Shown here: positions 9,522 to 62,900 of the stretch, one piece after another | How positions within the stretch are numbered: the stretch's first letter is position 1 | How the letters are laid out: each line of letters begins with the position of its first letter | Source: Antedon mediterranea | Taxonomy: Eukaryota > Echinodermata > Crinoidea > Comatulida > Antedonidae | NCBI RefSeq assembly: GCF_964355755.1 | Contig: NC_092671.1 | Span: forward strand, 40,685,804 to 40,749,803 | Reading direction: 5' to 3' | Length of the DNA stretch: 64,000 bases | Translations under genes and position numbers: made by a program | The notes under the pieces: generated by a model | Told to the model about the DNA's origin: nothing | What the model saw: only the letters and a program-made list of their open reading frames with translations | Databases searched by the model: none

Positions 9522-9928
9522 AAGAAGATGATGCTGCAGGCATTATTGAAATGATTATAATGGAACAGGCACTTGATAAAATGCCTGAAGATCTGAGGCT
9601 TTATCTTAGAGATAAACAAGTAAATAAGAGCTATGATAGCCGATGATTATATAGCTAATAGAGGTGGCCGTGGCTATTGGAATGCCGTAAATTCTGAAAA
9701 TAAGCCTACGTATAAGGGCCAAGAAAATAGTAAACCTAAGAATGGTACGACTCAGAATAACCCTGGAGCTAGGCAGCAAGGATACAATAGGTATCGCGGA
9801 AGGGGAGGCAAATTCCATAACTACTGTATGGTAGAAATTTCCAACAGAGAGAACCTTCAAATGAATGGATTAATGGCCTATGCTTCAATTGTAAGGAGAA
9901 GGGACATAAAATAGGGGATTGTCCTAAG
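9522..9928 (+). pseudogene. Broken gag C-terminal part with CCHC zinc knuckle
   Basis: Coding sense jumps between frames: capsid end (about 9530-9643), a basic Arg/Gly-rich segment (9633-9840), then a zinc knuckle CFNCKEKGHKIGDC at 9881-9922 (spacing C-2-C-4-H-4-C). The knuckle is in the same frame as the following pol ORF. At least two frame changes are needed, so this is mutational damage rather than one programmed shift. Confidence 0.75.
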
Positions 9929-17026: not shown

Positions 17027-17495
17027 CATAACAGACAAAATATGAACACAAACTCTTTCATTCTTCATAACAGACAAAATATGAACACAAACTGTTTCAT
17101 TCTTCATAACAGACAAAATATGAACACAAACTGTTTCATTCTTCATAACAGACAAAATATGAACACAAACTGTTTCATTCTTCATAACAGACAAACTATG
17201 AACACAAACTCTTTCATTCTTCATAACAGACAAAATATGAACACAAACTCTTTCATTCTTCATAACAGACAAAATATGAACACAAACTCTTTCATTCTTC
17301 ATAACAGACAAAATATGAACACAAACTGTTTCATTCTTCATAACAGACAAAATATGAACACAAACTCTTTCATTCTTCATAACAGACAAAATATGAACAC
17401 AAACTGTTTCATTCTTCATAACAGACAAAATATGAACACAAACTCTTTCATTCTTCATAACAGACAAAATATGAACACAAACTCTTTCATTCTTC
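17027..17495. repeat. Minisatellite, 39-bp unit, about 12 copies
   Basis: Units of the form CATAACAGACAAAATATGAA plus CACAAACTCTTTCATTCTT, differing mainly by one C/G position. Because 39 is a multiple of three and the unit lacks stops in one frame of each strand, the array looks like a repetitive ORF on both strands; I do not regard either as a gene. Confidence 0.95.
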
Positions 17496-17499
17496 TCTT

Positions 17500-18112
17500 C
17501 TTTCGATGTGAAACCGTCTATTTGCATTAAATTTGATGTAATACTAGACCACTAACCGGATTTTCAGCAATATACAGTACTATACAGCAATATACAGTAC
17601 TTGTATCCTCTTAAATGGCTTACTACGTAATGTTATCAAGTTGAACAAAATTCAATAAGATTCTGTGTTAGTAGTAAAGCCTTGCATTCAATTCTGATAA
17701 GTTTACTACCAGTGTTGACATAGGAGGTCAGTGTTTGTAGAGTACAAGTATCCATAATTGAATTGAATGAAAAAATACTGTGGAAAGTACTTTTCATACA
17801 ACTGAAAAATAACAGATAATTTCTTAAGAAGTTTTATGGTTCTTCAGAAATTACAATTGTATAATTTTAATTTAGTTTTCTTGCCCATCGCATGTCATGG
17901 CATCATTGCCATGTTATTGAATATTCAGACTGCTAATGTACTACTAACTTGCACAAGTAAGTAAGTAATTAGATAGTTAAGGTTTTTAAGATTTTTACAA
18001 TCAATTAAATACTAACTGTAGCTGTAGCGTGACTATTTCGCAATGTGTGTTTATTGTATAGATCTTATTGATTTGTTTTATTATACATCAGGTGAATATT
18101 TACGTCCATTGA
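17500..18112. other. Spacer upstream of synaptotagmin-1
   Basis: AT-rich, with small CAGTAC/ATACAG repeats near 17565-17605. Nothing coding seen. Confidence 0.4.
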
Positions 18113-18308: not shown

Positions 18309-26348
<8,040 letters not shown>

Positions 26349-39700: not shown

Positions 39701-42700
39701 TGCTTGGGTTGTCTATGGTGTCAAGTCAGTATTTCAATTTGTGTGGGCAGTAATGCTTAGAAATATTGCCCAGCATTATGATTCACAAAGTAAGAAATAC
39801 TAAATGTATTACTTAATTAATTAATATTATTTAATAAATACACTAAATGACTTATCGTAACCAGCATGGGCAATTTAGGCATTTAGTTAATAATAACAGC
39901 CAACACTAAAAAAAAACTGTTTTTAAATTAATATTTGGCTATTTAAATAAATGCTTGTCTGATTTCTGAAGCTATGTTCATGTTGTTTACTTTTATCCAG
40001 ATTCCAGAATTGAAATCCTATTTCATAATATACTGTAATATATGTATTAGGGTTAGGCAGTAGTAACCAAAAATAATATACTGTAATATGTATTAGGGTT
40101 AGGGAGTAGTAACCAAAAATAATATACTGTAATAATATACTGTAATATGTATTAGGGTTAGGGAGTAGTAACCAAAAATAATATACTGTAATAATATACT
40201 GTAATATATGTATTAGGGTTAGGGAGTAGTAATCAAAAATTAGCAAACCTACTTGACAGTTCTGCTGTCAAAATGAACTAGATGAACATTTTTTTATCAT
40301 ATTAGGAAGAGGGCTTAACAAATGTATCTTTGAAAGAGTTGTATAATATAAAATTGTATTGACTTCATTTATTTTACTTCAGTGATTTGTATTTACAGGT
40401 TTGCAGGAACATATTGAAGCAGATGAAATGTTAATTGACCTAGCTTTGGAAGGAAATGTATTCAAATTCCTTTTAGAAACTATTAATAAAAAGAAGAATT
40501 TTCATGAAAGCGTAAGTTTATTTATTTTCAAATCAGTGATTCATTGAGTGAAAATACCCTGCAACCCCATTTAGGCTAGCTATCCAAATTATTTATTCTA
40601 CATCTATTATACTTCAAATCATTGCTTTAAATACAATTATGTACCTTCTGTGGTAAAACATGGCAAATGTGTATGTGTTCAAATATATTATTTCATAAGA
40701 AATTTTTCTTTACAATTGAATATATATAAAAAAATAAGGATGGATATTTTAATAGCAACTGTAATGTGTAAAAAAAAAATTGGAAATAGCTGTCTTTTAA
40801 AAGTGTTCTAATTGAGTAATATTTGTTTTTAAAGGAATTTCGAATTAGACGTTTTCACACCCTTGTTACAGACTTCATTGTCCAGATGCCACTAAAGGTA
40901 AGAATATAGTATTATACTTTACAAGATTATAGAGATTTTAAACCATTGTACACCATTTATGCATAAAAGTACACATTTACACAAGATTATAGAGATTTTA
41001 AACCATTGTACACCATTTATGCATAAAAGTACACATTTACACAAGATTATAGAGATTTTAAACCATTGTACACCATTTATGCATAAAAGTACACATTTAC
41101 ATTGACGCTAATGTTTTCTTTTTAGATAAAAGAACTTCGTAATCGTGGAGATGAAGCTGCTCGCATTTTGTTTGCTCATGCTCAAGAAGGATTAGAACCT
41201 CCAGTCAACCTTCCAAGACACTTTGAGCATTTTATGAGATTGGTAAGTGATTTCATTTTATGAGATTGTTAAGTGGTTTTATTCTACAGATTCCAACATC
41301 TCCTTTCACCATATCTGGTTCTGATCTATATTTTTGTTACTTATTGAACTCCCAGTAGATGATTTCTCTACATATTTCTATTTAAAATAGATTTCAGTAC
41401 TGTACAGTAAAGATGATTTGAACTTGGAACTGGCAGTAGAGTACTGGTGCCCATCTGAACAGTCACTGAGTCCATCAAGGTCCAGCTATGCTACCTCTTA
41501 CAGACACAGACCATCAAACAGACAGGTGACTCCTAATTAGCATAATACTTGTCTTTTTTTCACTATACTACTCTAAATTCATACATAAATAGTTCTATTA
41601 TACTAGTAAGAGATAACTGGTTACAATGCTCAATTCCATTGATAGAGCTAGATGTATATCAACAAGGTCAACAGCCATAAGTCGCGTGCTAAAACGCATA
41701 GTGATACCGGACCGACAGACAGACCGACCGACCGACATAGTGAACTATAGAGTCGCGTCCACGCGACTAAAAATAAAACTGTTTTGTATGCTAGCAGGGC
41801 TAACACACTCATCAGGTGAAAAATACAAACATCACACAAGATAAATTATGTATGTATGGACAAGACTTTGATTATGTAGTTAATATGCCTTTACTTTCTG
41901 TGTTTACGTTTGATCTAAATGTAATTATAATATATTTTTTTATTTTATAGGTCAGCCTTTTTAAGTTTATCCGAATGGCCGGTGATCTTTTACCACCTTC
42001 ACTGTATGTTCCATACATTGCTATGTTGAGCGGCCTGGCTACTGGACCTCTCTGTGCTCATCACTGTTTTAACCTTTTGAAAGTGAATGGCTTATCTGGC
42101 GGTAAGTTACAATTTTTTTCTTTTACTTATTACCTTGTGACACGAGAGAGTTTGAAGTAAGAGTGATTAAATATATTTATTCTTTCAAGGAGGAAGTGTG
42201 ACAAGTGTGTCATGGGATCATTTTTTCCAATCACTTAGCCGTTATTACTCAAACCTTCGTCAAGAAACTGGAGCCCACCATGTAGGAGGTCAACGTCAAA
42301 TACTTGGTAGAGGTATTACGCCTCAGGAACTTGATGGACTTGTTACAGTACTTAAGTTAATTCAAACGGTTGCTGAATGGGTAAGATACTATTGTACTGT
42401 ATGCATATCACTCGTACCTTTTGGTACTTGGTGGTTGTCTTCTTTAATACTTAATAGTTTGACAAGGAGACCTTGGTGAGTGGCTTATTAATTCTTCTCG
42501 TACCTTTTGACGTGGTACTTACTTGGTACTTGGTGGTTGTCTTCTTTAATACTCAATAGTTTGACAAGGAGACATTGGTGAGTGGCTTATTAATTGGACA
42601 ATATCTCTTTATTTATTGTTAGTGGCTTCAATAGATTCTTGGGGTCAGTTTATTCTTTTATTATTATCGAACTATTGCTTAGTAGGTAAATATTCAATGT

Positions 42701-45700
42701 TTTATTATAATAGCCCAGAAATAATTTTTCTTGATTATTTTTTAGGATGAAGAAGCACGAATTGGTTTGTGTGAGAACCAAGCCTGGTTACCAATTGTCT
42801 TACTGTTTGGTATTATTACATGCAGCGTACCTCCTTTGTTGAAAGCTGAATGTTTAAAAGCACTATCAACATTTGCCAAGACACCAGAACTAGCAGCAAA
42901 TCTCTGGCAAGCATTAGAGAATTCTCAGGTACTGATTGACTTATTGATTTGTGCATCAATTTATGCAGTAGTTACACTTCAATTCATTCATCCTCATATT
43001 CAAAGATCAAATTTATTTTTAATATTAAAAATGATAAAAAACATAATTACTCAAAGAATTCACTTTTCAGATACTACCAACTTTGGACATCGGTTCCTCT
43101 GGAAGATCTGGTATTCCATTGGATTTAGAAATAGTTGAGTCCCGAAATGAAGAGTTTCCTATGACCATAGGTTTCCTGGAGTTCATGTCTTGTCTGGTTC
43201 AAATACCAATTCCAAATACACTTGGTGCTGGTCTTAGAGCCCCAGGATTTGATCCTTATTTAGAATTTTTGCGTGATCAAGTGTTCTTAAAGTTTCATAC
43301 ACGTGCTTATCGTGATACAAAAGAAAAGGTGAGTTTAATTTACTAGTTACGATTTAAGTTGTTTAACTATCATCTGATATATTTTGTACCAGAGTTCTAT
43401 TTACACACACAAACACAAATTGATCAAAATGGTGCTATTGCAATTGATTGATCAAAATGGTGCTATTGCAATTGATTGATCAAAATGGTGCTATTGTTTG
43501 TAAATACTGTAAAGTAGCTTTGCATCAATTACTTGACACCCTCATCCAAAACAACTCCACAGTAGTTACAAATAATTACAATGCTGTTGGTGCAATTACT
43601 TGACACCCTCATCCAAAACAACTCCACAGTAGTTACAAATAATTACAATGCTGTTGGTGCAATTACTTGACACCCTCATCCAAAACAACTCCACAGTAGT
43701 TACAAATAATTACAATGCTGTTGGTGCAATTACTTGACACCCTCATCCAAAACAACTCCACAGTAGTTACAAATAATTACAATGCTGTTGGTGCAATTAC
43801 TTGACACCCTCATCCAAAACAACTCCACAGTAGTTACAAATAATTACAATGCTGTTGGTGCTTGGGCTCGAATATAACCCTAGTCATCAGCCCAAACTCG
43901 GTGGTCTAGAGGTATGAACACCAGGCTAGTGATCTGGAGGTCGTGGGTCCCACATGAGAAGTAGTTTATTGCAAATATTCTCAATGTACCTAGTATAAAG
44001 TGCAAAGTCAGAGTTGGACAAAACATCTGACAAAAATGATACTAAAAACTACTATTTGGGATTTTCTACTTCAGTGGGAGGTTGCATCAAGATGCCTACA
44101 GATCTTTCATAAATTACTGTTTGATCACAATGCAAGTATAGAAGATTTTATGGATCAGATACTAGATATACAAGGTGGAGGCCAGACAGTGGCAAATAAG
44201 CCTGCTGGACATCATCTTATTGTACAAATGTTTAAGGACACTCATCTACTAAAACTGGTCAGTAACCCTCAATTATAACTCCATTTTTATAGTAGCGCTT
44301 ATAAGCAAGCTTTCAATGCGTTATTACCCTGGTCATTCTTTGAAACAACAGTGTATACATACACATACTCCTATAATAATGCAGCTACTAATCAGCACAA
44401 AGTCTTGATCTAACTGGTACCCATTTTATACACCTGGGTGGGGAGAGGAAAATATGTAATTAAAGTGTCTTGCCTAAGGATACAAGCAATGCAGCGAGAG
44501 TTGGATTCAAACACACTGTGCCACACTCTTTGCACTATGGCAGTAGAGTTTGCATCATTCCATGTGATTGCTATAATCCATTGTCTATCCATTATTGGTA
44601 TATTTTTTAGTTTGAAATTTCTTATTTATTTTAGATCCTTTATATTATTCACGAAGCATGTGAGGTTTTTGATCAGTATAAAACCTTTCCAGGCAGTGTA
44701 CATTTAGAGTCTGCTGCCCTCTATTGTCTCAAGATGATTGACATCGCTATCGAAAAACAAGCAGAATTTTTTGGACTGGTCAGAAGTCAAAGCTTAGGAG
44801 CCATGGTTACCCCCATGGATCAGTTACTTATGTCTATCAACCCTAAGACCGGCAAAGCTGACCATTTGGTGGACATAGCAAAGTAAATTATTACATTATA
44901 TAATCGAGACATCAAGCTATTTTATGCAACATATTGCATATAAAATGTTAAATAAAATAGTTTTGATTATTTTAAGTTAATATTATCTTAAATTAAATAA
45001 TAAATATATTTTGTATGTAGGTTTGTGTCCCACGCCACAGCTTATCCTGAACACGCACTGATTGCTGTTAAAGTGTTATTCAGTGTTGTTAAGACATCAA
45101 ACATCCAATCTGAGATTGTTGGATTATTTTCAGTCAATGAGGTAAACAATTGGTTTGCTGTCAATGATTAAATTTGTTGACTTTTCATTTTAGTGCTTGA
45201 TTAATTGCAGTATTTTTTTGTTCTCTCTAAATGGAGAATAATTCTTTGTGTAATATGTTTTTCAACAAATCTGGTTACATAAAGCACAACATTATTCTGC
45301 AATGTCACTTATATTTTTAATAAACCAGAATTGAATTGAAAATAAGCATCAACACAGATTGGGTCCAAAAGATTTTGTTTTAAAAGGTTTTTCCATTTAC
45401 AGTAATATTGAATTCTGGTAGTTCTGTTTTTTCAGGAAGCATGTTATATGAACATCATTATTATTTCTTTATAAACTGTTACTGTAATATTTGTTCCTGA
45501 CAAAAAGGTTATTGATTATTATAGGTTGTTGGCAAAGAGCTGATCATAGGATTTGTAGATTGTCTTGAAACTGATGAGCCTGAAGAGGAAGAAGGCGAAC
45601 TAGCCCTTCAAGACATCGAAAACCAGGATATTGTAAACATTCGCAACGCAACGCGGCTTGTCATCTTGCGTCTGTTGCTGTTCTCATTAGGACAACCAGC

Positions 45701-48700
45701 TCCAAACTTAGCACACTTCTTCTTGGGTTTTGACGTAAGAAAACCAATTAGTAAAAGTAGCCTCCAAGATCCAGGTGAGAAAAATGAAAAGAGATTTTTT
45801 ATGAATTTCTGTTATGTTTAACTAACTCAAAATCATTGTAAATCTTCTATCATTGTACATACAGATTCTGTGACAATACTGTGAGTTCTTTCAACAGACT
45901 GCAAGCGATATGAAATATGAAATTAATTGTATTCATTACATTCACACAGGTGTTTTAGGGTCACCGAGAACCTGTCTGCATGCAATCCTAAGCATACTGG
46001 AGAAGGGTACTGGCAAAGGCTCAGGGTTAATCTCTATACATACAATGCCAAAACTAGCAGAACATTGTTATCAGATGGTGTACCAATTATGTTCCAATAG
46101 TGAGACATCAATTTCAATCATGCGCTATTTGGGAATGACGCATAATTTCTTTTACCGTCATCTTAAACATGTTCCTTTTGTGAACAGAATTGGACGTAAG
46201 TAATAATGTTTTTTTTTTGTGGAAAACTATAAATTTTGATTATTTTCAATTTAACTTTAATTGTTAGGTATATACAAATAATGAATATTTATGAGTAGAA
46301 TTATGAAAATATTTCATGTTTTGAAAGATTGTTCTATTAAACATGGTGGAGCTCAGTTAAATAAAGGTAAAGGTAAAGATCTACCAGACCAATCTTTATA
46401 TTTTTTACGATCACTTAATATTGTTTTAAACAGAAAACACAAATGAGAAATTGCTACTAAACCAGCAAGCATGGTTACTTAAATCTGTAGCTGTAGAAAT
46501 ACGTCTGACTTCAGTAAATAGACAACGCTCTTACACACAAAGACTTCTTAAGTTATTATTAGAAGATGTACCATCAACTGTAGTAGACCGAGGTAAGATT
46601 CAAAACTAATTTATATCTTGGTTTTATCAATGTTTGTACATTAAGCATGTGTTATGTAATATTTCTTAATTGTTTGCTCCAATATAGATGACAATGATGC
46701 CGAAGTATATGGTGAAACTAACCAATCAATTATGGAGACTACATCTGGACAGCAAGTTGGACCAAACATTTTAGGTATCTAGTAGCATCATTTAACTTTT
46801 TATCATATTTGTTGTATATTAAAATTTACCATTTTGATCAACAGAATGAAAAAAAATGAATAAATAAAACATTATCGGATATTTCTAAAGCAAAATAAAT
46901 TCCTTAAAATGATGGTAAAACATTTTAATTTCTAACTTTGTTTATTTCTAATTTTGTCACAGGTATACAAGTAAGACGAAGAATTTTGCAGATTTTAGAC
47001 AGTATTGATCTTACTCAGACTTACCCAGGAAATGTTCAGCTAGACTTACTTGAACCTTCCGTCACAGAGCAGTTGATTAAAGCGTGTGAACAACAGATGG
47101 ATAATGGTATGACACTCTGTAACATACATGCTTTACATAGGGAGTTGATCGGTAGGTTGAATGCACAACAAGGTCCAGCTATTGTGGGAAATAGACCTCG
47201 AATTTTACAGGTATGACAATTATTCTTAATTTTTCCATTTTATCATATTTTTAATGTTTTATATACGTGACAAGCAAGACAATTTTCAAGCCAGAGTGCT
47301 TGACTAAATAAAATAATTGAATTGGATATTCTGATTAGCCGTTTTGTTTGATCTGAAACTTGCCACATAAATAAAAAGAATTAAATTGTTTTAAAAACAT
47401 TTCTATATAAGTATTTTATATATATTATATTTTTTTAAGCAAAATCATATTGTGTATATTTATGCAAATTTTGGAAAAAAAACCCACATTCTTAGCCACT
47501 GTTTTTTTTTACAAATAGGAAATACAAGAAATATTGAAGAACGTAGTTGAATGCAATCAATCAAAGGAGATGGCTGGTGCTAAACGTCACGCTCTTGATG
47601 CTTGGCGACAAGTTGTAGAGATCTTGTTTGCTTCTTGTTCTCAAGACTTACTTCCTCTAGATATCAGAGAAACTATTCTGTTGGATTTGATTCAAGAACT
47701 ACTCACTAAGGTGAACATTATTTCTCAATTAATTTTTACAATTCTAAACGATTTTTTTAACAGTATTTGTAAAAGTATTTTAACATATAAATAGTATTTT
47801 AACATTGCCTTTTTGCAATTTGATGCCATGCAAAACAATTTTCCATTTTGAAGTGCACCAATAAAATTTCTTTGTGAAAATGGTAAAGGCATGTATAAAA
47901 TGAAATATATTTGGATTTCAGGTCACTGATGATGCTACAGTACCTGAACTTACAGCTCCAGTATCTGGCATCCTTATAACACTAATGACAAATTTACTGC
48001 AGTGTGTTGTAGTAGATCAGTCTAAAGCTATCCCAGAACAGCTATCTACACAATATGTTCACATGTTAGATGGGTCAGTTATTCATGGTAGTGGAACATC
48101 ATTTGGAGGATCTGGAGTCATATCTGCTGCTGTTCTCACAGAAATTCTAAGAAAATTCCTTACATTTTTAGTTCAGTCAAGTAAGCATCTTACTATTTGG
48201 CATTGTGGCACTGGAACTCATCAGTAGTCACAATATCAAGATTTCTCTTAAGCCCTGTCTACACTATTAAACTTTATGTGATGTGCCCATATATGGACAT
48301 GATGATGTCACATCACTACAATATTTGGGCATATTACCAGCATTTGGGCACATCACACAATTTTTGTCAAACTAGTTTGATAGTGTAGACAGAGATTTAT
48401 GGCCCCAAACCAGTGTCACAACCTGAACTCTATAGTACCCTTTTACACTATCGACTGAGAGAGGAACACGAGTTGAACTCGGAGGCAATTTCCATTTACA
48501 CTAGCCAAAAAAACTGCGAGATAAACTCGAGTTGCGCCCATTTACACTACATCGATCACCCCGGTGCTGTCAATCAAATCACTATTGCAAGCGCACACGT
48601 GGAACTTAACTGACTATTGTTTAAACGTTTAAACACTGGAACATATCGACAAATCTCATAAAAACATAATAATCTGAATTTACACACAATTTATTTAATT

Positions 48701-51700
48701 TTGAATGTATAGTCCAGTGTAATATTTTCTTTGTAGCTATTAAGATTATCATTTATTATTTTAAAAATTAGGGCCTAACAATTATTTTTCTTTTTAAAAT
48801 GACTGCATTTCCGCCTTGTAGACTGTACGTACATTAAATAGGCTTTAAATTGTTAGGTTGGCATAAAAATAGTGTAGGTATGGTAAGTATTTAAAATAAA
48901 AATGTATTTTTTAATTAGCATAACAATGTATCAATGAAGGAAAATTATTATATGGTACTTTTTTAGTTCCTAAAAAAGATATCATTTTCATCCATTGAGA
49001 CATCAGTATTATATATATTTTCCCCCTTTTCAATAATTAGGCCAACATAAAATCGGTCAGGGTAGAGTTACATCAATATTACATTATTTTAGGCTTTCTG
49101 GTAAGGTAGAATGCACACGAACAATTTCAATATTTTCAGCAGAAAAGAAAACTCACAAATTTGTTTGTGCCTTTAAAAGAAACTTAACGAACAGCACAAT
49201 ATATTGTACAATTATTATTGTAAGCAAAAAAATATATTGTTTGTATTTCTGTGACAACATGTTACATTTTCACGTCAATGACCTTTAACAGCTCGGTGTT
49301 GAACCACAAAAACCGTTTACACTTTGTGTATCCGGTGTAGATTCGACTACACCGGAGAAGGTACATCGGAAAACATTCAGCTTCGTTTCACCCCGGGGAG
49401 AGCACACCGGGGTGGTTGGATTTTCCCATTTACACCAGTCAATAAAAATCACAACACCGGTGTTTAACGGCCCGGTGTACTAACAACCGCGGGGTTACAC
49501 CGCTGTTACGGTGATAGTGTAAAAGGGGTATAGGAAACAATTCATTTTAGAGTTCCTTGTGAAAGTTATTGAGTAATGTATTTGTTTATAATTTGTATAC
49601 AGGTGCTGGTCATGTATTTGTTTATAATTTGTATACAGGTGCTGGTCAACTACGTGTCCGTAGCAACCTTTATGGTGCATTGATGAACTTTTTACAAATG
49701 CCAAAAAAAGTTAATGAGATTCCAACTTTAAAAGGCCGTAACGTGCTTGATTCGTGTATGTTGTCAGAGTATGAAAAGATGACAACAGCAAGTCTAGTAG
49801 TAATCAATGAATTTGGTGATAGTTTTATGGAGTTGGTGTGTAGAGACGCTTGTGATGGGCATGATGTTGGAAGGGTACAGTATTATAACATTGTTTTTAG
49901 ATAAATCCAATTTAATAGTCGATTATGTAATTTTGAAAATAACTAGCAGTAAAAATGTTTAAAACTTTTTCTTAGATGTTAGCATTGTCGCTGATGGATT
50001 GTATTCTATCAACTGACAAGCAGAATAGATGGCTTCACTTTCTTAACTCAAAGGGATATCTGAGACACATAATAGAAAGTCTGGTACAAGAAGACCAGTC
50101 ACTGCAGGATATGTTGAGACCAACGCCAGAACCACTGCGTGCACTCTACATTTATGAATCCAAAATGGTAAGTAAACCAAATTAATATTCAATCAATATC
50201 AAGTGATTTTTGCTCGTCCACATGTAAACCAATTATTTTGTTTCATCCAATATTTCTTTAGTCACTTCTGACACGTATTGGTGAAACTACAAATGGAGCT
50301 GAGGTGCTCCTGCAACAAGGAATTATGGGAAGGCTATCTGAGTGTCAGTTTCTCGAATTACGACCGGAAAGAGACATAACCAGGTTGGTTGGTTGACTTT
50401 TTGTTTTTTTTGTACTGAAACTGATCTTTAATATATTCCAGGAATCACTATTACATTTCTGTATATAGTTCTTTACATTAAACCATCCACATGTGCGACG
50501 TTTCGACTTGTTATACAGGTAGTTAATATAAAAACCAGTTGAAAACATTTTTCAAAGCTATTACCTCTGTTGAAATAGGTTTTTCTTCATTTTGCGTATT
50601 ATTGTCATGTACAGGAGAGGTGATGGTGCAGGAGACATTGTTAAGTCTGATGCCTTTATTCCTACTGTATTGCACCGGTACAGACAGCTTTTGTTTCCTG
50701 TTCTCAAACTGTGTATTGCTATCATGACCTCTCTTGGGGGTCAACATAAAGAAGCCACAAATCAGGTAAATAAAACAATAGTATTTGTACAGTTGTATTT
50801 TTGTGAGGGTCCCAAATGATCACCATCGGCTGGATGGACCCTAATGATCAGCTTCGGCTGGATGGACCCTAATGATCAGCTTCAGCTGGATGGACCCAAA
50901 TGATCAGCTTTAGCTGGATGGTCGCAAATGATCACCTTCGGCTGGATGGTCCGTAATGATCACCTTCGGCTGGATGGACCCTAATGATCAGTTTTAGCTG
51001 GATGGACCCTAATGATCAGTTTTAGCTGGATGGACCCTAATGATCAGCTTTAGCTGGATGGACACTAATGATCAGCTTCGGCTGGATGAACCACCCCTGT
51101 AAAATATTGTTGAAATAAAATAAATAAATAAAAAGAAAGAAGAAACATTTCAATTTAATTATGTGGACATTTAGAGAAACATTTGTTTTCACTCTCGGCT
51201 GCTTACTGGAGTTAGTTACATCAATTTTGTATTTTAAATGATTAGATTCTACGTTTTGTGTTCTCTCACTCTGAACTGTTTACCGCAATCCTCCGTGATC
51301 ATCCATCTCATATAAGTGTGGAAGCTTTTCAAGAATTATCATTAACTACTGCAGTAATCTGCAGAACAGCAGCAGATGGTAAGACCTCATAATAAGGATA
51401 TTTGATAGATTGTATTGGTTGTTTGTTCACAAAGTTTGCTACAGGTTAACGCTTTTGGAATGTGATTTTGCATATAATTACAGAATTTAAAAAGCATATA
51501 TTTGCAATAAATGATGCAAAATATAAATAATATTTATATATTAAAAATGGATTTTGAAAATGAGTTTTATTTGTTTACAAATATATTTTTGTGTGTGTAG
51601 TTGATTACTATGGTGGTTCACCTTATGATGCTATTGGCCAATCACAGCTTGTTATTCAAGGGCATTTAAGTAGAATACAGAGACAGATATTGGCATTAGT

Positions 51701-53780
51701 GCCGCGATATTGTATCCATGATCACTGGAATAAACGACTTAAATTAGCAAGTGAAAATGAAATTAAGGAAGAAGACAAAGAAAAGATACGCCTTTCACTA
51801 CTTGAGGTCAATTCAAATATCATTGCTTACTGTAGATCAGAGGTTTCTAGTACAGGTAGGTTTTATTTCTTTAAATGTTGCTGTTTTACTTATTGTTATT
51901 GTGCAACTGTTAAAACAATAATTGTTTTTAAATAAAAAGAATTCATTTTTTTATTAATTCATAAATGTAACTATTATTCAGGTTCAACTGGACAGTCCTG
52001 TAATGTTCTTTTTACACCTAGTTTATCTGAAGCATTGACAAGAAATTATCATCAAGTTACAGGTATCATTTTAGAACATTTTTTGTGAAAAATCATTAAT
52101 TTTAATTTAGTAATATAAATTATTGTTAATTATTATTTGTTAATTATTTTATTTGACTTAGAAATACCAATGGCATCCTTAAGTGCAACCAAACCTCCAA
52201 GTCTTGGTCTAATTGTACGACATTTGCAACAGGTGGCAAACACATTCTTACCATCATTTGACTCTCACCAACAATTAGTTCATAAGCTGTCAAACATTTC
52301 AGAATTATCTGCTGAAGAACTAAAAGAGGTAATATGTTTAAGGTTATTATACTATAACCAACTTCAATACCTATTATACTTTATTAAGGTACAGATATTG
52401 TATATTGAATTTTTTTTAACGCGCATTGAGCAGTGGTATGTGCGCTATATAAATCCATATTATTATTATTGTATTGTTAATACCTACAATGTAGATTTTT
52501 ATAACATAAAATGTGTATTTATTCTTCAAATTAGTTTATTAAACCAGTTTTGACAGACAGAATTGAGAAATTATCAACAAGTTATAGACAACAAGTAGCA
52601 TGTGAACAAATTGCTCAGATGATCTGTATGAAAGCCAAGGAACTTGCTCTTAAATACTGTATCCTTATCAAACTCAAACGTTATTCACTTTACTTTTTAT
52701 TCAAAATTCTCATAAAAACAAATACAAACATACGGAAACAAATACAAGACAACATCAACCACAAATGTCTGAGGTATTGATTGTATAAAAATTAGTTGGA
52801 ACTTTATTTTATGTTTTTCTATTCCTGAACACTCTAAAAAGATATTTTGGAGAATTGTCTTTTTCTGATTTGGCGCCATCTAGAGTTTTATTTCATTCAC
52901 TGCCAGCCAACTGACCTGAACAATTCCTTGTTACCACCGCTAATGTCAAGAACTCATCAAGCGAGGGATCTTGCTGGTAAGTTAACAAAATCTTTAGAAT
53001 TTATATCATTTTGCTACCTGTGACCACTCAGTTAATATCTGAACAATATTGTTTTTTAGACCCATTTAACTTGGATAGAAGTGGCATTGACGATGGAAGT
53101 GAGCCATTGACTGGAAATCAAACCAAGTCTATCTCTAAAGCCGATATTCAACAAGTAAGCTTTAATATACAGTATATATGATAAATTAATATTCACAAAC
53201 ACTAGACATTTCTTTCCAATCATTTCTCTAAACCTTATTACATTCTTATTCATTCATATTAATGGAAACTCACAACCACTATCATGTTTACCATTAGTTA
53301 AGCTCTGTCTACACTATCAAACTTTGTGTGAAAACAAAATTGATGTGCCCATATATGGCTATGATGATGTCATATCACTACCATATTTGGGCACATCACA
53401 CTTGACTTGTTTTGTCAAACTAGTTTGATAGTGTAGACAGAGCTTTAAACAAAAGCACAAAAAACATAGTAATATTTAAACAGCCTACATCTTCAGTGTT
53501 AATCTATTTCAATAATCATTTATTATTAATACCAGTATTACTACTGTATTACCACTTTAAATTTGTTTAGTATTGTATTTGAAAATGACAATTTCCTTTG
53601 TTTTTACAGCTAAAAGAAGAAGCGCTGAACTGCCTTACTGAGTCAGTTCTTCAGAAATTCCGAGACATTGAAACCCAATATGGCAAGACTGTGTCACGGT
53701 ACAGCTTTGTATCTGTCCTTGCCCGTCGAATCCGTAGACTTCTCACAATTGGAATTCAAACAGATATTCCTATTCGATAA
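33693..53780 (+). CDS. NUP205: Nuclear pore complex protein NUP205, 36 coding exons (about 2038 aa)
   Basis: Scaffold nucleoporin of the inner ring, a long alpha-solenoid. Exons: 33693-33726, 37373-37515, 37831-38002, 38321-38625, 38993-39224, 39625-39789, 40399-40511, 40835-40897, 41126-41242, 41391-41525, 41951-42101, 42190-42380, 42746-42928, 43071-43328, 44075-44257, 44635-44882, 45021-45141, 45525-45774, 45950-46195, 46434-46592, 46688-46774, 46963-47210, 47519-47710, 47922-48180, 49639-49874, 49976-50167, 50262-50383, 50615-50765, 51246-51378, 51601-51855, 51982-52062, 52162-52328, 52535-52658, 52842-52976, 53060-53154, 53610-53780. Phases add up (6117 bases). The model tracks human NUP205 (2012 aa) throughout: WSPYKDLYHIVD, TWTLELDEEL, LGAGLRAPGFDPYLEFLRD, CRDACDGHDVGRMLALSLMD, LIWRHLEFYFIHC. 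Weakest junction: exon 33/34 (donor GTATCC; purine-rich acceptor). Confidence 0.95.
33927..36152. mobile_element. Foldback element, family A, copy 2, in NUP205 intron 1, 8-bp target duplication
   Basis: AACTGTGT flanks both ends (33919-33926 and 36153-36160). Arms are arrays of the GTCGCCCCATCGCAAA unit (33940-34135) and inverse (35945-36140). Next to the left array, 34141-34395 is the inverted equivalent of the core of copy 1. Copy 2 holds about 1.5 kb more, bordered by another imperfect inverted pair rich in GGTCGCG / CGCGACC (about 34405-34460 and 35880-35940), which may be an inserted relative. 34800-35030 contains an unrelated dispersed repeat. No transposase seen. Confidence 0.85.
36430..37137. 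mobile_element. Dispersed element with GTCGCG ends and CGACAGACCGAC tracts, NUP205 intron 1
   Basis: AAGTCGCGTGCTACAATGCA, GTGATACCGGACCGACAGA and GACATAGTGAACTATA occur near 36430-36500 and again at 37045-37135, ending CACGCGACTAA. A short version with both ends close together is at 41665-41772. Moderately GC-rich interior with many GCGC motifs. Confidence 0.6.
40027..40240. repeat. Tandem repeat, about 45-60-bp units, NUP205 intron 6
   Basis: About four units AATATACTGTAATATGTATT plus AGGGTTAGGGAGTAGTAACC. Each unit carries one and a half telomere-like TTAGGG words, which I take as chance. Confidence 0.85.
40921..41100. repeat. Three identical 60-bp tandem copies, NUP205 intron 8
   Basis: ACAAGATTATAGAGATTTTA ... 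ACACATTTAC occurs three times without a single difference. Confidence 0.95.
41665..41772. mobile_element. Short copy of the GTCGCG / CGACAGACCGAC element, NUP205 intron 10
   Basis: AAGTCGCGTGCTAAAACGCA ... GAGTCGCGTCCACGCGACTAA with the CGACAGACAGACCGACCGAC tract between. Same family as 36430-37137; looks like an internally deleted form. Confidence 0.65.
42405..42600. repeat. Tandem duplication, two copies of about 95 bp, NUP205 intron 12
   Basis: GGTACTTGGTGGTTGTCTTC through GTGAGTGGCTTATTAAT appears twice with small changes. Confidence 0.85.
43425..43865. repeat. Two tandem arrays in NUP205 intron 14: 28 bp x 3 and 67 bp x 5
   Basis: GATCAAAATGGTGCTATTGC (28-base period) three times to about 43500. 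Then ACTTGACACCCTCATCCAAA at 43531, 43598, 43665, 43732 and 43799, an exact 67-base period. Confidence 0.9.
43885..43985 (+). repeat. tRNA-Thr(AGT)-like SINE fragment
   Basis: CGGTGGTCTAGAGGTATGAA (box A like), CCAGGCTAGTGATCTGG (anticodon arm, AGT) and GGTCGTGGGTCCCAC (damaged T-arm). Degenerate, so not a working tRNA. Confidence 0.5.
44425..44535 (-). repeat. Dispersed SINE-type fragment in NUP205 intron 15
   Basis: CACCTGGGTGGGGAGAGG ... AAAGTGTCTTGCCTAAGGA ... GTTGGATTCAAACAC. The last phrase is a box B-like sequence read on the minus strand. I recognise the type as a common invertebrate repeat; ends are uncertain. Confidence 0.4.
48251..48396. mobile_element. MITE, 146 bp, TTA target duplication, NUP205 intron 24
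   Basis: Ends AGCCCTGTCTACACTAT and ATAGTGTAGACAGAGAT; TTA at 48248-48250 and 48397-48399. Interior carries GATGATGTCACATCACTA and TTTGGGCA words shared with 53301-53444 and 25922-26060. Confidence 0.85.
48431..49532. mobile_element. Inverted-repeat element, about 1.1 kb, NUP205 intron 24
   Basis: Left end ACCCTTTTACACTATCG and right end GATAGTGTAAAAGGGGTATA are inverted. Both subterminal regions hold further CCATTTACAC and CACCGGGGTG / CACCCCGGTG words in opposite orientation. Non-coding; TA-type flanks are possible but not clear. Confidence 0.65.
49567..49638 (+). repeat. 36-bp tandem duplication carrying the exon 25 splice acceptor
   Basis: TGTATTTGTTTATAATTTGT followed by ATACAG|GTGCTGGTCA occurs twice, giving acceptors before 49603 and before 49639. 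See findings. Confidence 0.9.
50812..51095. repeat. Minisatellite, 28-bp unit, about 10 copies, NUP205 intron 28
   Basis: Units AATGATCAGCTTCGGCTGGA plus TGGACCCT with scattered changes. Confidence 0.95.
52410..52475 (+). repeat. 3' end of a LINE/SINE-type retroposon
   Basis: GCGCATTGAGCAGTGGTATGTGCGCTATATAAATCC followed by (TTA)n: the GCGC-TATATAAAT hairpin plus trinucleotide tail is a common 3' end of CR1/L2-related retroposons. A minus-strand relative is at 60978-61080. Confidence 0.55.
53301..53444. mobile_element. MITE, 144 bp, TTA target duplication, NUP205 intron 35
   Basis: Inverted ends AGCTCTGTCTACACTATC and GATAGTGTAGACAGAGCT, perfect over about 23 bases; TTA at 53298-53300 and 53445-53447. 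Best-preserved member of its family here. Confidence 0.9.
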
Positions 53781-54773
53781 AATGTTGCTACCCTTTTTGT
53801 ACAATTATTTTTTGCTTGTTTTTGGCCCTGACATTGTTAATGAAGTTGAAGTCAACTGAATGTTCACATTTTGTTCATACTCAATGAATATTTTAAAGCG
53901 GAAATTGTAGCTTTTGCCTGTACAGTAATTATACCAGTAGTGTATTGATATGGTTTTAATATATACCTATTACAAATATACATTTTACATATACATTTTT
54001 TTTCTACTTACATGTATTTAATACATTGAAATACAATATTTGTCAGTAAAGTTCCACATTCGAAATTTATAACTATAAACATTTTGTATGGCGAATAGGA
54101 ATACTGTAAGTTTAGTAGTTATCAATTTAAGTAAAATAGTAAAAATTGTCATTTGGTGTAGTATTGCATTCATGATTAAAACTGAATAATAATAATATCC
54201 AATACATTCTGCTATATAACAGTGATTAGCAGTTGAGTCATAAGTGACAATACTGTATTTTCACTGTTCACCAATATTACAAAACTTACAGGTTAACTTT
54301 TTGATCGTGATGTGCGACATGTCCGCCCTCCCGTCTTCATAATTGTTTTATACTTTTTACATCTGGTGTACTAATACTATTGCTGTATGTAGTCAATCTT
54401 TAATACACACTAAACTAAGTATCTTTATTCCTTTCATTGTCACATCGCCTGTCTTAATGTGCACCACTGCTGCAGTGTACTGCCTGGCTTTTTAAATATC
54501 AAGTCCAAATCTGTACTTAATGTATCGGATTGGCAACTATATAACGTTGTTTCCATCTGTGTTTTGCTAACGCTGAACAGGTTTTGTTTACGAACAGCCA
54601 CTACGATACTTATATTCTATGAAATGGAAGAAAATCAGTAGATAGTAATAGACTGAGCATTTTATATAAAACTCATTTTGTACATTAAAGAATGGAATTG
54701 TGATAAGGATGTCTAATTAAAAACGATTTACATAGATGATGTATAATGCAACGTTAATCGTCTTGTAAATAAA
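53781..54773 (+). other. Probable NUP205 3' UTR with AATAAA at 54768-54773
   Basis: Untranslated AT-rich stretch after the NUP205 stop. AATAAA at 54768 is a good poly(A) signal candidate. If it is used, the transcript would overlap the last exon of the minus-strand mini-C2 gene (54440-54616). Confidence 0.45.
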
Positions 54774-55453
54774 GAAAACGAAAATCAATAAGTGGAGAGG
54801 TAGAATCGTTGTATGTTATTCTATTACAGGTCTTTACACTCATTCTAGTGAACATTATTTCACATTTAGCTTACAGGTAGTAAAACTCGACTTCTTACCT
54901 TTGTCTTGTTAAGAGGAACATTAAAAATCAAAGTTTCGCCAAAAAATGCTGAAGATGTTACTTTTTTAACTGAAGTTTTTAGCTTTACAAAACATTCGTC
55001 ACCATCGAACAGTTGAACCGTTATGAATATTTCTATAAATAAAAATGTGATAAGTTTACTCTACTGTCCGTGTATATTGGTCGCACTGATAGACATTGCT
55101 ACTGCAGGAGAGACATTATTAAAACTTACTAGTGGCCTTCTCGAATAAAATGTTTCTTGCCTCGATCACATTCAATGTTAGTTTTTGCTTAGGTGGAACG
55201 TAGCGTAGACATAATAATATTTCCCCTCTTTTTATCTGTCATAGTAATATAAAAACATAGGATGAAAAAAATCAAACATTCACGGATTCTGCAGCTAATA
55301 TGCCTAACCCCAGTTAGAATAAATGTGTGTATGAACTGTATCAAGTCAAAACGGTGCCTAAGAGAAACAACATGGTGCCTTGGTTTTATATTTTCTTACC
55401 GGAGTGTTTTTCTTCATCCATGTAATTACTTTACTCTTAGATATATCAGCCAT
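54440..55453 (-). CDS. Single C2-domain protein, synaptotagmin C2B-like, four exons (156 aa)
   Basis: Minus-strand exons in order: 55453-55400 (starts ATG), 55235-55130, 55032-54899, 54616-54440 (stop TGA). All introns are GT..AG, phases 0, 1 and 0, and the total of 471 bases is a multiple of three. After an 18-residue basic start the product is one C2 domain of synaptotagmin type: GEILLCLRYVPPKQKLTL (like [18 protein letters not shown] of C2B), VKLKTSVKKVTSSAFFGETL (like [19 protein letters not shown]) and a final LQQWCTL in place of QWHTL. Exon 3 is 134 bases, the same as synaptotagmin-1 exon 7, and intron phases agree. The loop aspartates are missing (SDPY absent; AVRKQNLF where LDYD is expected), so no calcium binding is expected. 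No membrane span. An acceptor-like TTCTTTTTACAG precedes the ATG, so further 5' exons, probably untranslated, may exist. AATAAA lies at 54429-54424. Function unknown; paralogue not assignable. Confidence 0.8.
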
Positions 55454-56943
55454 CTGTAAAAAGAATACTAAACCGGTTCGTTTTCACTACACACTTACTT
55501 AATTGTGTAGGCCTAAGTAGCTAAATATGAAAACATACTGAATCAAATCAAATCAAACAAGTAATTATCTGAACAAATCAAACTGACGGGTAAACTTCTG
55601 AACATAGGTTCAGCTTTTAGGCGTAGGAATCTTCAGTAATATTAATAATTTGTAGCAAATCGTGATGCATTTCACCTTTAAACGTCTATGCCTATTATTC
55701 ATAATAATCTATAATTGTTGCTCGGATTAAAGTCTCGTGAGTTACCAATCAATAGATTTATTTTGCATTCAATGACTACTTCGGAGATTATAATAATGGA
55801 CACGCTGCTTGCATTCAATGACTACTTCGGAGATTATAATAATGGACACGCTGCTTAACCACGCCGAGGGTATATTCTATCCCTTTTTCTATTACAGATT
55901 CACTATTTTGGCCAAATACAGGTAAATACTACAATGGATTGCTTAAATTAGAAGCGATTTTTTTATTATGATTAACCTTAACAGTTTCAAATCACTTAAT
56001 TTTATTTCTGAACCTCAGTCTCTGTGTCGTCCTTGTTCATTGTCCACACTTCATAGAATCAGTATTACAAAAGCATTGACCAATTTATAGGTCCATGGTA
56101 TAAGTAGGCCTATACTACTAACACAATTCTTTAAAACAAATCATTCAAGTTTCAAAGTGAGAACCTCATGCAGCTCTATTGTTGTCTTTGCTCAGCCCCA
56201 AGCATGGTGGGGTACTGAAGATTCTGATACATAAAAAAAATAATAGATGTAGGCCTACATTTCCGGGGATATTGCAGCTCTATTAAACAGTTAGGTATGC
56301 CGTGTGTTCTTATTCAAATTCAAATTTATTTACCTCCCTCAGGAAAAACAAATAAAAACTGTACAATAAAAGACACCAAAATGAAGATTCACACGAATCA
56401 AAAGATTCAAATGGTTTAAAAAACAAGTTAAATAAAGTGTTGCTGATGTTGTTAGGGGACAATACATCTTTAAAGATGCAAAGAATATATTGTTTTGAAA
56501 ATGTTTACTCACCTTGACCAAAAATTGAAACACACAAACAAAGTATTTACCTGAAAAAAACTGTAATTTAAATTAAAATAGTCGGATAAAATCGAAGTCA
56601 AGTGAGGTTTTGGTAGCGAATTTAATCGTTTTTTTGTCATTTTACATAAAGTGTAACATTATTTTTTTTCTATAGAAATAGAAGAATATTAACTTTGTTA
56701 AAACTACAAAATGGCCTATTCAAAGTCTGATTTTATTAATCTTAATTTTTCATGTATTTGGGGGACAATACATCTTCTTACGGTCCTCCCCTCCGATCCG
56801 ATCTATGTTGTGTCTACTATATCGTGTTCATTCACGCATGACTGTGATCTGCGGCATGCGATATGTGAACTATTGCATGCTTTTTTGCAGACCGCATGCA
56901 GTGTGTACGTGTATTGTCGGGGTCGGATGTCATTCAATTTAAC
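55454..56943. other. Spacer between the mini-C2 gene and ALDH16A1; probable promoters of both
   Basis: The two genes diverge across this 1.5 kb. It contains a 46-bp tandem duplication (about 55765-55855, TTCAATGACTACTTCGGAGA), a dispersed repeat at 56185-56440 related to 30890-31100 and 32830-32860, and a poly-T stretch. No promoter motif is decisive. Confidence 0.45.
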
Positions 56944-59900
56944 ATGGCAGCAACTAGGCCTAACAATACATCGTCTTTATCGACAGAGTCAAATTCGGTG
57001 GCTGGAATTTTTGATACTATGAGTTATGGTCCAGCTCCAGAAACTGAAAATGCTGCGCAGGTAATGCACAATGCGGTGTATTTGTAAATATTATTTTGAT
57101 AAAGTCCTAGCCCTCCTACTAGGAGGCTAGCTAGGCTAGGCTTACTAAAATACCCGTCTGAGCTACGTACTACCCGCACAACAACAACGTGGTGACATGT
57201 CTGATGATCGATACCATATAATATTAATGCGAATAATGACCATTTCGGTCGTTGTTGGTTGAGAGCCTAGCTAGTAGTCCAAATTAGGTTTATAGAACAT
57301 GAAAAACCGACTAATTATATAATATTTAATAAAACAATTTCCTACTTTTACGTACTTTTTAATTAAGGCATGGATTGAAAAACACAAAAGAAGTTTTGGT
57401 CACTTTATTGACAATAAATGGGTGAAACCAGTTGGCCGTAAAACATATACATCAAAATCACCGGTGACGGGAGAAGTGCTAAGTGAAACAATTCAAGGAG
57501 AGGAGGAAGACATTGAACTTGCAGTTTCTGCTGCTCACAAAGCTTTTCAATCCTGGAGCAAATTGTCATGCGATGTACGAGCTCGATATCTCTACAGGTT
57601 TGTACTTTTTCTACAAAAAGTCATGTTTTTGTCACAGCAGTGATCTTCAATCAACCTTATTTTGTTATTATTTTAGTAAAATTAGTGATTAGTCAATTAC
57701 TGAATTATATATGTATGTGATCTCAAACCTGGATGATAATGACTTTCATAAACATGAATAGACTGATTTGTAATCATGATAATTATGTGTATTTTTTACA
57801 GTATTGCAAGACATGTACAAAAACACAGCAGGTTACTGAGTGTAGTTGAAGCTCTTGATAATGGCAAATCCATTAGAGAGACAAGAGACTGTGATATACC
57901 ACTAGTTGTACGCCATTTCTATCACCATGCAGGATGGGCGGAATTAATGGATTCTGAGATGAGCAACTGGAAACCTGTTGGTCAGTGAAGCATATCTTAT
58001 CTATCTATTTATAACAAATAATGAATGTTTATGAGTGGAATGGTGCAAATAATTTCATGAGGTGAAAAATGGAATTTTATATTTCAATTATTTGTATCCA
58101 TGAATATAAAACATCTAGCTCATGTGCACTTTAAAGAACCTAGTACATCTTTCAAGATGAGTAAGGTGGTTACCCCGGTGTACTAGTACATCACAGCGAC
58201 TGATCATAACTGGACCCTCTGGGACACCAGTCTTTGACTGAAGAGGTCACCCAGTATATATAAAATATTTCAATTTAATTAGGTTTATTCGTTATTTGTA
58301 GGTGTTGTTGGTGCTATTGTTCCATGGAATTTTCCCCTAATGTTGTTAACATGGAAAGTATGTCCAGCTCTTGCAATGGGTAATACAGTTGTTCTTAAAC
58401 CAGCTACATACACTCGTCTCAGTGCCTTACTCTTTGCTGAAATATGTGCAGAGGCTGGTTTACCTCCAGGTGTCTTCAATGTTGTGACTGGTAATGGGGC
58501 ATTTGGCAGTAAGCTTGCCATGCATCAACAAGTTGATAAAGTAGCTTTTACTGGCTCTACACAGGTATTCTTATTGTTCTAAAAAAGCTATTTTAATAAT
58601 GTGATAATAATGCAGTAGTAGAATAACATTAACGGATGTGTTTAGAATGGGATTTTAAGATAATGCAGTTCTTTCATAAGATGATAGTTTTGCAACAAAG
58701 CTTTTCTGCCGGCTGGGACGTCCCATCGAAAGCGTTTGAGTTCGCTGAGACCCCGGGCTCTAGCATGTGTGAATGTGTGTTATTGTTGTATTGTAAAATC
58801 AGGAATGAATTGAATTAAATTAAGCATCAAGTTTTTAGCTTTTTTGGTTTCGCCACTCTTATTTTAAATAATTTATTTACTTTGTACATAAAAAAGAAAA
58901 GATAAATAAATGTTCTGAAATGAAAAATGAAATACATTGCTGTAGACCTGATAATGATTACATTGCTGTAGACCTGATAATGATTACATTGCTGTAGACC
59001 TGATAATGATTACATTGCTGTAGACCTGATAATGATTACATTACATTGCTGTAGACCTGATAATGATTAAATTGCTGTAGACCTGATAATGATTAAATTG
59101 CTGTAGACCTGATAATGATTACATTGCTGTAGACCTGATAATGATTACATTGCTGTAGACCTGATAATGATTACATTGCTGTAGACCTGATAATGATTAC
59201 ATTGCTGTAGACCTGATTGATTACATTACATTGCTGTAGACCTGATAATGATTACATTGCTGTAGACCTGATAATGATTACATTGCTGTAGACCTGATAA
59301 TGATTACATTGCTGTAGACGTGATAATGATTACATTACATTGCTGTAGACCTGATAATGATTACATTGCTGTAGACCTGATAATGATTACATTGCTGTAG
59401 ACCTGATAATGATTACATTACATTGCTGTAGACCTGATAATGATTACATTACATTGCTGTAGACCTGATAATGATTACATTACATTGCTGTAGACCTGAT
59501 AATGATTACATTAAATTGCTTTAGACCTGATAATGATTACATTACATTGCTGTAGACCTGATAATGATTACATTACATTGCTGTAGACCTGATAATGATT
59601 ACATTACATTGCTGTAGACCTGATAATGATTACATTGCTGTAGACCTGATAATGATTACATTACATTGCTGTAGACCTGATAATGATTACATTACATTGC
59701 TGTAGACCTGATAATGATTACATTATTACATTGCTGTAGACCTGATAATGATTACATTACATTGCTGTAGACCTGATAATGATTACATTAAATTGCTGTA
59801 GACCTGATAATGATTATATTACGTTATAGGTTGGACAAATCTTAAGAAAGTTGACAGCTGGCTCTGGTAAGAAATTGTCTTTAGAGCTTGGCGGAAAGTC

Positions 59901-62900
59901 ACCAGTGGTAGTGTTTGAATCGGCTGATCTTGATAGCACTGTTGAAGGGATAGTTGATGCTATATGGTTCAACCAAGGCCAAGTAAGGAGGATATTGTCA
60001 ATTTATTTTGAAGCAGTGCATTTTAAAATGGCATTATATGCAAAATAAAAAAATTGATTGATTGATTATTCCTGTTTTTATCATTAAAGTTCAATTTTTT
60101 TATAGTAGTTTAATTAGTGTTTATCTGTTTGAAAGTGCTCCAGCATTATTAATAACTTTGTAGCCTAGACTCTTCTACTCATATGTAGAATCTATAACGG
60201 GTATTTTACATTTCAGGTTTGCAGTGCTGGGTCTCGTCTAATTGTGCAAGAGACTGTATTAGAGGAACTTGTTGATAAATTGAAAGAAAGAATGAAACAC
60301 CTTAGGCTAGGTCACTCTTTGGATAAAGCCATTGATATGGGTCCTATTGTGGACCCATCCCAAAAGAAATCTATTAGTGATTATGTTGAAAGAGCTAGAA
60401 AGGAAGGTGCTGAGGTAAGTGTATAATCAAATAAAGTGAATGAATTCATTATAGGTTCATTATTTTATTTATTTATTATCATTATTATTTATTTATTTGG
60501 AATTACACCTTTAGATCAGTGGCACACTTATCACAAAGGTGCATCCTTCACAAACAATATAAAATATAACAATTAATTTACATACAGAAAAGTATAAAGG
60601 CAAAAAAACAACTCCTAACCTATCCCCTACCCCTCCGCACCCCAACTAATTTTAATCGATACATACAGTAGAGAATTACTTTACACAAATGAATACAAAA
60701 CAAAATATAGTAAAAGTGTATTAAATAAACATCACACAGCTTATTACTTATTACAAACACCCGCCAACCCCCCCCCCCCCTTATTATTATTGTTATCTAG
60801 TTGTATATAACCATTATTTATGCATTATATTGTGTGAATGTTTTTGTAGGTGTATCAGGTGCCAGGGTGCTTGCCTAAAGAGGGTTGTTATTATCCTCCT
60901 ACACTAATAACAAAGGTGCAAACTTCATCAGTTGTTGTCATGGAAGAGGTAATTTGAAACGTTGTACACATTTTTAACAACTTATAATAATAATAATAAT
61001 AATAATGATAAATAATAATAAGATTTATACAGCGCACATATCCACAAAAGTGCTCAAGGCGCTTGTGAAAACCATGAAACATATTAAAGACCCCTTCCCT
61101 GCAATTTTGGACGTTTTTTGGAAAATAATACATATATATCACTTTAAAAACATTAAACCATGTCATTCCTTGTCTTAAATGTACGTTTTATAGTAAATTA
61201 TGATAAAAAGTGAAAAACAATGCACTACCTAAGTAGCTCGCGGCGATCGACCTCTCGTGGACGGTCTTAGGCCTAGCCTAGCTAGGCTTAGTTTTGTAGG
61301 CCTAGCTGGTAAACATCGGTAACGTACGAACATCGTACGCTAGCTATATACCTAGCCTGACGTTGTATAGTTGCTGCATTAATTGTCTTTCTATTTTTGC
61401 CAGACTCCGTTGATACAAATTGGGGAAAACCCGGTATTTTCGCTGAAAAGTTAGGAGTCTTCCATTTGTTTTGGCCTCACGATCGATCGAAAAGTGGGCG
61501 AATTACAGGTGAAAAACAAAAATATCAATCCGCGCGCAATGCATTTTGGGATTTATAGCGGGCCGCTATAATTATTAGAATCGACTTATTTTTCACATTT
61601 TTAACCGTTTAAAGACGAAAAAAGTTATCGCAATAGGACCATATAGTATTATTTTTACATTAAATATAGTTTGTGATCTTAAATTAGATCTAAAAAACGT
61701 AGGGAATGGGGCTTTAACCTTAAACCTAAATACAACTGATAATTTTGACAAAAACCGAAATAAAAACAAGACCAATCGAACCCACATCACTGCTTCCGTT
61801 TAATTAAGTGGGTGAGTGGCCGAGCGGTTAAGACAGTGGAACCGTAATCACGTAGCCATAACATCGGCAGGGGTTCGAGGCTCACTCACTCCATGGTTCT
61901 GGTGGTAGAACGAGTCTTCTCGGATAAGGACTATAAACCGTAGGTCCAGTGTACACAACTTGCTTGTGTGCACTTTAAAGAAGCTAGTACATCTTTCGAG
62001 ACGAGTAGGGGGTTACCCCGGTGTATTAGTACATCACAGCCACTGATCACCAACTGGGCCCTCTGGGAGACCAGTCTTTGACTGAAGAGGTTACCCAGTA
62101 TAAATATATATTTCAATTAATCAAGCAATTTAAGGTGCATAGACCAGCCAGTACATAACTCACAGGTGTTCTCAGTGATGTGGATATTTAGCAAAACAAA
62201 TTAAAATCTAACAAATTGCCAAAAGCAGCCTACAGCAGATGTGTCTTAAGCGCACTCTTGAAAACATCAGTAGACTTATAAATTATAATGTTCATTTTTC
62301 CTTTAAATAAAGCATCAATCTTAATTTTTAAATAATTTTTTCAAAATTTATTAGTAAAGGAAGAATTAAAATATCAGATTTAATAACAAACTTTGAATGC
62401 CAATAGATATTTGGTCCTGTGCTTGTGGTTCTGGCTTTTAGGACTGCCAAAGAGGCCATTGCATTGGGAAACAATACAAATTATGGACTGGCGGCAAGTG
62501 TATGGACAGAAAATGTGTCATTAGCTATGGAGGTGGCACTTAGCCTTAAAGCAGGAGCAGTCTGGATTAATGCTCACAATATGTTTGATGCTGCAGCTGG
62601 ATTTGGAGGCTACAAACACAGTGGATATGGTAGAGATGGAGGAAAAGAGGTATGTCTTCAATAAATTATTTATTACAATGTATCTTGGTATACAAAAAAA
62701 ACCAGTGATCACTTAGTTTATGATTGTATTGATAATTGAATTATTAAATTAGCGGTATACCATGTAATTTGTAAAAAATATCAGTTAATGTCACCAAATA
62801 AAAATCTGTAAAATTGTCATGTAGTAGGTGTGGTTTTACCAACCAAGTCTGATAATGAAAGCAGTATGTTTGACAATGTTAATAGCATTATTTGTATTCT

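Follow-up and report, generated by a model that had tools for sequence, protein, structure and literature searches.

A single-C2B gene near synaptotagmin-1 in feather stars, probably a local partial duplicate

Can the C2B domain of a synaptotagmin be set free as a gene of its own, and what would such a gene derive from? The question is raised by a 64,000-nucleotide stretch of the feather star Antedon mediterranea (contig NC_092671.1, positions 40,685,804 to 40,749,803; this whole stretch is the window, and positions below count from its first letter), in which an earlier note, made from the letters alone, had joined four small minus-strand exons with matching phases into a 156-codon frame. Coordinates, introns and frame were all borne out. 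Exon 1 as modelled (55453-55400, 54 b; MADISKSKVITWMKKNTP) aligns with MTDISKNSESKVKIWMKKNT of a protein predicted in the crinoid Anneissia japonica; exon 2 (55235-55130, 106 b, phase 0 in and 1 out) holds the start of the C2B domain (GEILLCLRYVPP...); exon 3 (55032-54899) has 134 b, phase 1 in and 0 out; and exon 4 (54616-54440, 177 b with the stop) carries the domain end and the motif WCTL. Three GT-AG introns separate them, the spliced exons give 471 b, open over 156 codons up to the stop, and an AATAAA on the same strand (54424-54429), 11 nt past the stop, is a likely polyadenylation signal. This is almost certainly a real gene, because over 99% of its length the spliced frame matches the independently predicted Anneissia protein, at a level far beyond chance (E 3.2e-42). 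We consider it probable that the gene arose by local partial duplication of a C2B exon unit of the type found in synaptotagmin-1 (Syt1), the calcium sensor of nerve terminals, giving a soluble, basic, calcium-independent single-C2B protein.

The product carries one C2B-like domain, as had been proposed. Pfam C2 (PF00168) gave the window protein (P0001) 26.1 bits (E 1e-5; cut-off 22) and the Anneissia relative (P0002) 39.7 bits. Among solved structures, synaptotagmin C2B domains come closest in sequence, and a profile search reached Syt1 with E 2e-20. Each of the two proteins has a single C2, in place of the tandem C2A-C2B of canonical synaptotagmins, and neither modelled product has a membrane span (top 19-residue hydropathy 1.11 in the window gene, 0.92 in Anneissia). 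The calcium ligands of a calcium-binding C2B, read by eye from the alignment, are missing in Antedon (0/5) and nearly so in Anneissia (1/5), and the C-terminal motif, WHTL in Syt1, reads WCTL in Antedon and WCTF in Anneissia. The absence of C2A, membrane span and calcium aspartates claimed for this gene is thus supported, and the product is very likely calcium-independent.

P0002, annotated 'synaptotagmin-C-like' and 193 aa long, was the sole relative at E <= 0.01, with 16 candidates scored, when about 5.8 billion proteins were searched, with coverage of those of about 86-273 aa sharing exact words; it is 56% identical to the window protein. A two-sequence profile of the Antedon and Anneissia proteins, run against 363 candidates (about 106-338 aa, with shared exact words), added no further relative at E <= 10. 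The gene is thus present in two crinoid families, Antedonidae (Antedon) and Comatulidae (Anneissia). No Antedon mediterranea protein in the database matched it in either size range, so it seems to be unannotated there at that size, although a longer fused model is possible. P0002 shares with the window protein the single C2, the same losses except one Asp and the WCTF end, but is 7 residues longer at the N-terminus, carries a 13-residue insert ahead of the C2, ends in a longer acidic tail and has an Asp at the D303 position (residue numbers are rat numbering, counted from sequence). The stretches NVPLNKTKN and LFDGDE are kept in both. These two crinoid proteins, which we call the orphans, are identical at 84/133 aligned residues, against 140/140 for the C2B of Syt1 between the same crinoids. 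P0002 and the Anneissia Syt1 (P0004) carry an identical value for the longest contig, 5,844,021, which suggests that both lie on one scaffold.

A likely parent stands in the window itself and had been overlooked. A complete Syt1 gene, the parental type of the C2B unit, occupies 18309-26348 on the plus strand, about 28 kb from the single-C2B gene, with coding exons at 18309-18452, about 19314-19496, 22680-22808, 23381-23548, 24067-24237, 24983-25103, 25579-25712 and 26166-26348; its spliced product is the same as that of Antedon mediterranea Syt1 (P0003) in every exon except for residues at hand-set borders. The last three of these exons (121, 134 and 183 b) are the counterparts of exons 2, 3 and 4 of the single-C2B gene (106, 134 and 177 b), with equal phases. 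The 134-base exons align without gaps, with 12/45 residues and 67/134 bases identical, so that the likeness to the Syt1 exon previously noted, with the same residue count, is found again against the window's own Syt1; over the whole C2B, 39/125 aligned residues are identical. The border between exons 2 and 3 is in phase 1 at the same place as in Syt1, the intron signature stated in PMC2823689. Among ten C2Bs with borders set by eye, the phase 0 intron after the 134-base exon is common to Syt1, the orphan, a gene that we label L034 and the paralog L013; it is absent or elsewhere in L009/L029, L011 (Syt7-like), L012, L014, L015 (Syt4-like) and L020, group names being our own reading, and the partial L010 and L022, which stand outside this count and the trees, also lack it.

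Trees point the same way. They contained five Syt1 rows from 120 listed proteins and seven crinoid synaptotagmin paralogs; of 40 requested stretches with C2 matches 20 were obtained, L029, L034 and L036 being added later, and the trees thus cover part of the genome's synaptotagmins. In the tree computed without L034, the orphan grouped with Syt1 against the seven paralogs with support 93/97 (86/97 with the Syt1 C2A added), and constraining it with L009, L012, L013, L014 or L020 gave p-AU 0.013-0.020. Inclusion of L034 gave orphan, L034 and Syt1 against the seven other C2Bs at 95/97. With the first 80 columns only, this group had 77/91 and orphan plus L034 82/84; when the orphans were omitted from those columns, L034 joined Syt1 at 89/94. 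Exon plan and tree together uphold the proposal of a DNA-level duplicate of a synaptotagmin C2B unit. With good confidence we take the gene to be a partial duplicate within the Syt1 group, made from Syt1 or via an L034-like copy, whether or not it belongs to the Syt18 line of Craxton (2010).

L034 lies about 280 kb from the single-C2B gene (G000:C2:40461064-40462322, minus strand) and is itself a C2B-only gene of the Syt1 group. It has the three-exon plan of Syt1 with a middle exon of 134 b; about 10 kb of upstream sequence yielded no C2A, the genome C2 scan listed no other C2 on its contig between 39.765 and 40.709 Mb, and no near copy of it was among 48 matches. Like the window gene it is C2B only as far as seen, has the 134-base exon, and groups with the orphan at 87/55; unlike it, L034 is far nearer to Syt1 (64/133 residues identical to the Syt1 C2B) and retains D303 and D309 and a WHKL end. 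Because of these retained aspartates and this end, L034 looks like an intermediate.

Several observations weigh against a Syt1-derived, surface-conserving C2B. The 134-base exon plan is found in L013 as well and thus is no exclusive mark of Syt1. When L034 was left out of the tree, placing the orphan with L011 (p-AU 0.068) or L015 (p-AU 0.124) was not rejected, and within the Syt1 group the order is unsettled, orphan plus Syt1 alone also standing unrejected (p-AU 0.20). The orphan stem branch has about 3 changes per site; long-branch effects are possible and its exact place is unsure for that reason. The genome C2 scan missed the single-C2B gene itself, so an equally decayed C2A could escape detection. 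The AlphaFold model has a mean pLDDT of 66, and its input alignment held 19 Syt1 proteins, which helped to impose the fold. K313, R322, K324 and K326 have been lost, both orphans have Gly/Ser in place of R398/R399, and 7/29 Syt1-diagnostic columns are kept in both, no clear excess. On the other side stand R281 and E295, kept in both orphans (the E295 position is K in 7/7 paralogs), K325 and K327, likewise kept in both, and an aromatic residue at 338, where Y is replaced by F in both. PMC9623538 places E295/Y338 and R281/R398/R399 in the primary SNARE interface of Syt1, has K313/R322/K325/K327 able to face PIP2, and gives R398Q,R399Q as disrupting SNARE binding. A natural free-C2B antagonist, damping release by taking up the sites at which Syt1 meets PIP2 or SNAREs, would fit the residues kept in both crinoids, together with the missing anchor and calcium sites. 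The Gly/Ser at R398/R399 argues against SNARE competition, the losses of K313 and R322 and the lack of an excess of Syt1-specific residues count against the antagonist as well, and we regard it as doubtful.

The ancestry itself could be told differently. The gene may be a crinoid member of the poorly conserved Syt18 group, with C2A lost, and not a crinoid-specific duplicate of Syt1. Syt18 as described by Craxton (2010) has tandem C2 domains in sea urchin and one C2B in Lottia, Xenopus and fish, is diverged and uncharacterised, and L034 may represent that lineage or a sister to it; Syt1 is favoured by linkage and by the exon plan, yet Syt18 itself might derive from Syt1. We hold this to be unlikely. 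A decaying duplicate, a pseudogene whose frame is open by chance and which is sometimes transcribed, would account for the lost functional residues and for divergence as fast as that between the orphans beside an invariant Syt1 C2B; it is very unlikely, given a frame and two stretches kept across two crinoid families, over which time a neutral copy would be expected to be saturated and broken.

Least probable of all, to the point of being hard to credit, is a synaptotagmin of the usual two-C2 form, its exons for C2A and membrane span overlooked or far upstream, the outcome that the earlier note had named as fatal to its proposal. Synaptotagmin genes usually have a C2A, and an acceptor-like ttctttttacag (ttttacag) abuts the ATG on its 5' side, for which reason a further 5' exon, untranslated or short, or at least an intron in the 5' untranslated region (UTR), is likely. 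A scan of 55454-58200 gave 8 donor sites, the best of which, at 56513, has the full consensus and could end a 5' UTR exon; none of the 8 had a reading like the upstream coding sequence MRPDINK of Anneissia. From the gene rightward to the contig end, about 180 kb, the genome C2 scan found no other C2, an aldehyde dehydrogenase gene takes up the space that starts no more than 2.8 kb upstream, and the Anneissia protein is predicted at 193 aa with one C2. The absence of a C2 match on that side and the one-C2 relative led us to reject the two-C2 gene. Membership in a repeat family was also set aside: up to 65 of 76 genome matches (E 0.002-0.2, about residues 35-124) look like one element, and these matches were judged to be chance. 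The one copy read (L035) is a reverse transcriptase in which a YADD motif is visible by eye; it had a match to P0001 but none to P0002 or Syt1. As an observation in its own right, this abundant reverse-transcriptase element occupies up to 65 places in G000, with frames up to about 990 aa.

The surroundings of the gene agree in part with what had been described. No exon was found on the opposite strand overlapping it, so it appears to be intergenic and not antisense. The flanking genes had been named NUP205 and ALDH16A1; Pfam confirmed their families and no finer identity. A Nup192/205-family gene (37282-53780, plus strand, ends by eye from open frames; Pfam was run on three frames, two of which were over the cut-off) lies between Syt1 and the single-C2B gene, tail to tail with the latter, and the aldehyde dehydrogenase gene (57323-62661, plus strand; Pfam was run on the stretches 58283-58579 and 62407-62661, and the first frame, at 57323, was set by eye) is head to head with it. 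At the left edge, the 5' exons of Syt1 recur in diverged form at window 1-1354, with 80-91% DNA identity to 18.1-19.5 kb. In this second copy the first exon (769-912) has 46/48 residues, the membrane-span exon (about 1149-1346) has small deletions and an open frame, and the donor sequences are those of the original; the copy could provide alternative first exons of Syt1. Between this copy and Syt1, long frames at 8727-13423 with a zinc-knuckle-like motif by eye (CFNCKEKGHKIGDCP) are likely a retroelement. Tandem repeats with long open frames lie at 17021-17527, upstream of Syt1, and at 24242-24769, in the intron between its C2A and C2B.

Under local partial duplication of a Syt1-type unit, the last three exons of such a gene, its C2B unit, would have been copied nearby and a new short first exon gained. 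The product would be a constitutive, calcium-independent C2 module that retains part of the C2B target surface of Syt1; with neither vesicle anchor nor calcium loops, its probable part in membrane traffic would be that of a peripheral binder or competitor and not of a trigger. That the gene is expressed, that its product binds lipids or SNAREs and that it has a role are predictions, and a more specific role as a peripheral membrane or SNARE modulator, read from sequence, is tentative. Broader still, the single-C2B gene and L034 might form a feather-star family of free C2Bs, split from Syt1, kept near it on the chromosome and serving as calcium-blind competitors or clamps at its membrane and SNARE surfaces, which we think decidedly unlikely. 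The interest of the locus is that of a natural domain-release experiment at Syt1: one chromosome bears the parental exons, L034 as a likely intermediate and, as the extreme, the single-C2B gene, which makes for a clean natural case of a synaptotagmin cut to one domain. As the Syt1 C2B is invariant between two crinoid families and the freed copies differ at more than a third of aligned positions, the comparison can tell which surfaces of C2B matter once calcium sensing is gone.

Literature joining Antedon mediterranea or crinoids with synaptotagmin held nothing on such a gene by title or abstract start, and no description was found of a Syt1-group, calcium-less single-C2B gene near Syt1 in crinoids, in a survey mostly of titles and abstract starts. 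The earlier note could not name a one-C2 protein of this kind; a predicted NCBI relative exists in Anneissia, and Craxton (2010, PMC2823689) described single-C2B derivatives of synaptotagmins from other animals. Compared with Syt1, the single-C2B gene has the same three-exon plan, the 134-base exon in phases 1/0, the full C2B length and E295, R281, K325 and K327, but its model lacks both C2A and a membrane span, its calcium ligands are gone, R398/R399 are changed to G/S and WHTL to WCTL. The Syt18 group and the single-C2 synaptotagmins of Nematostella (PMC2823689) are, like the crinoid gene, strongly diverged synaptotagmin derivatives, some with one C2 and some without a membrane span. The kind is therefore known, and the crinoid gene adds to it a calcium-less variant from the Syt1 group that has stayed close to Syt1.
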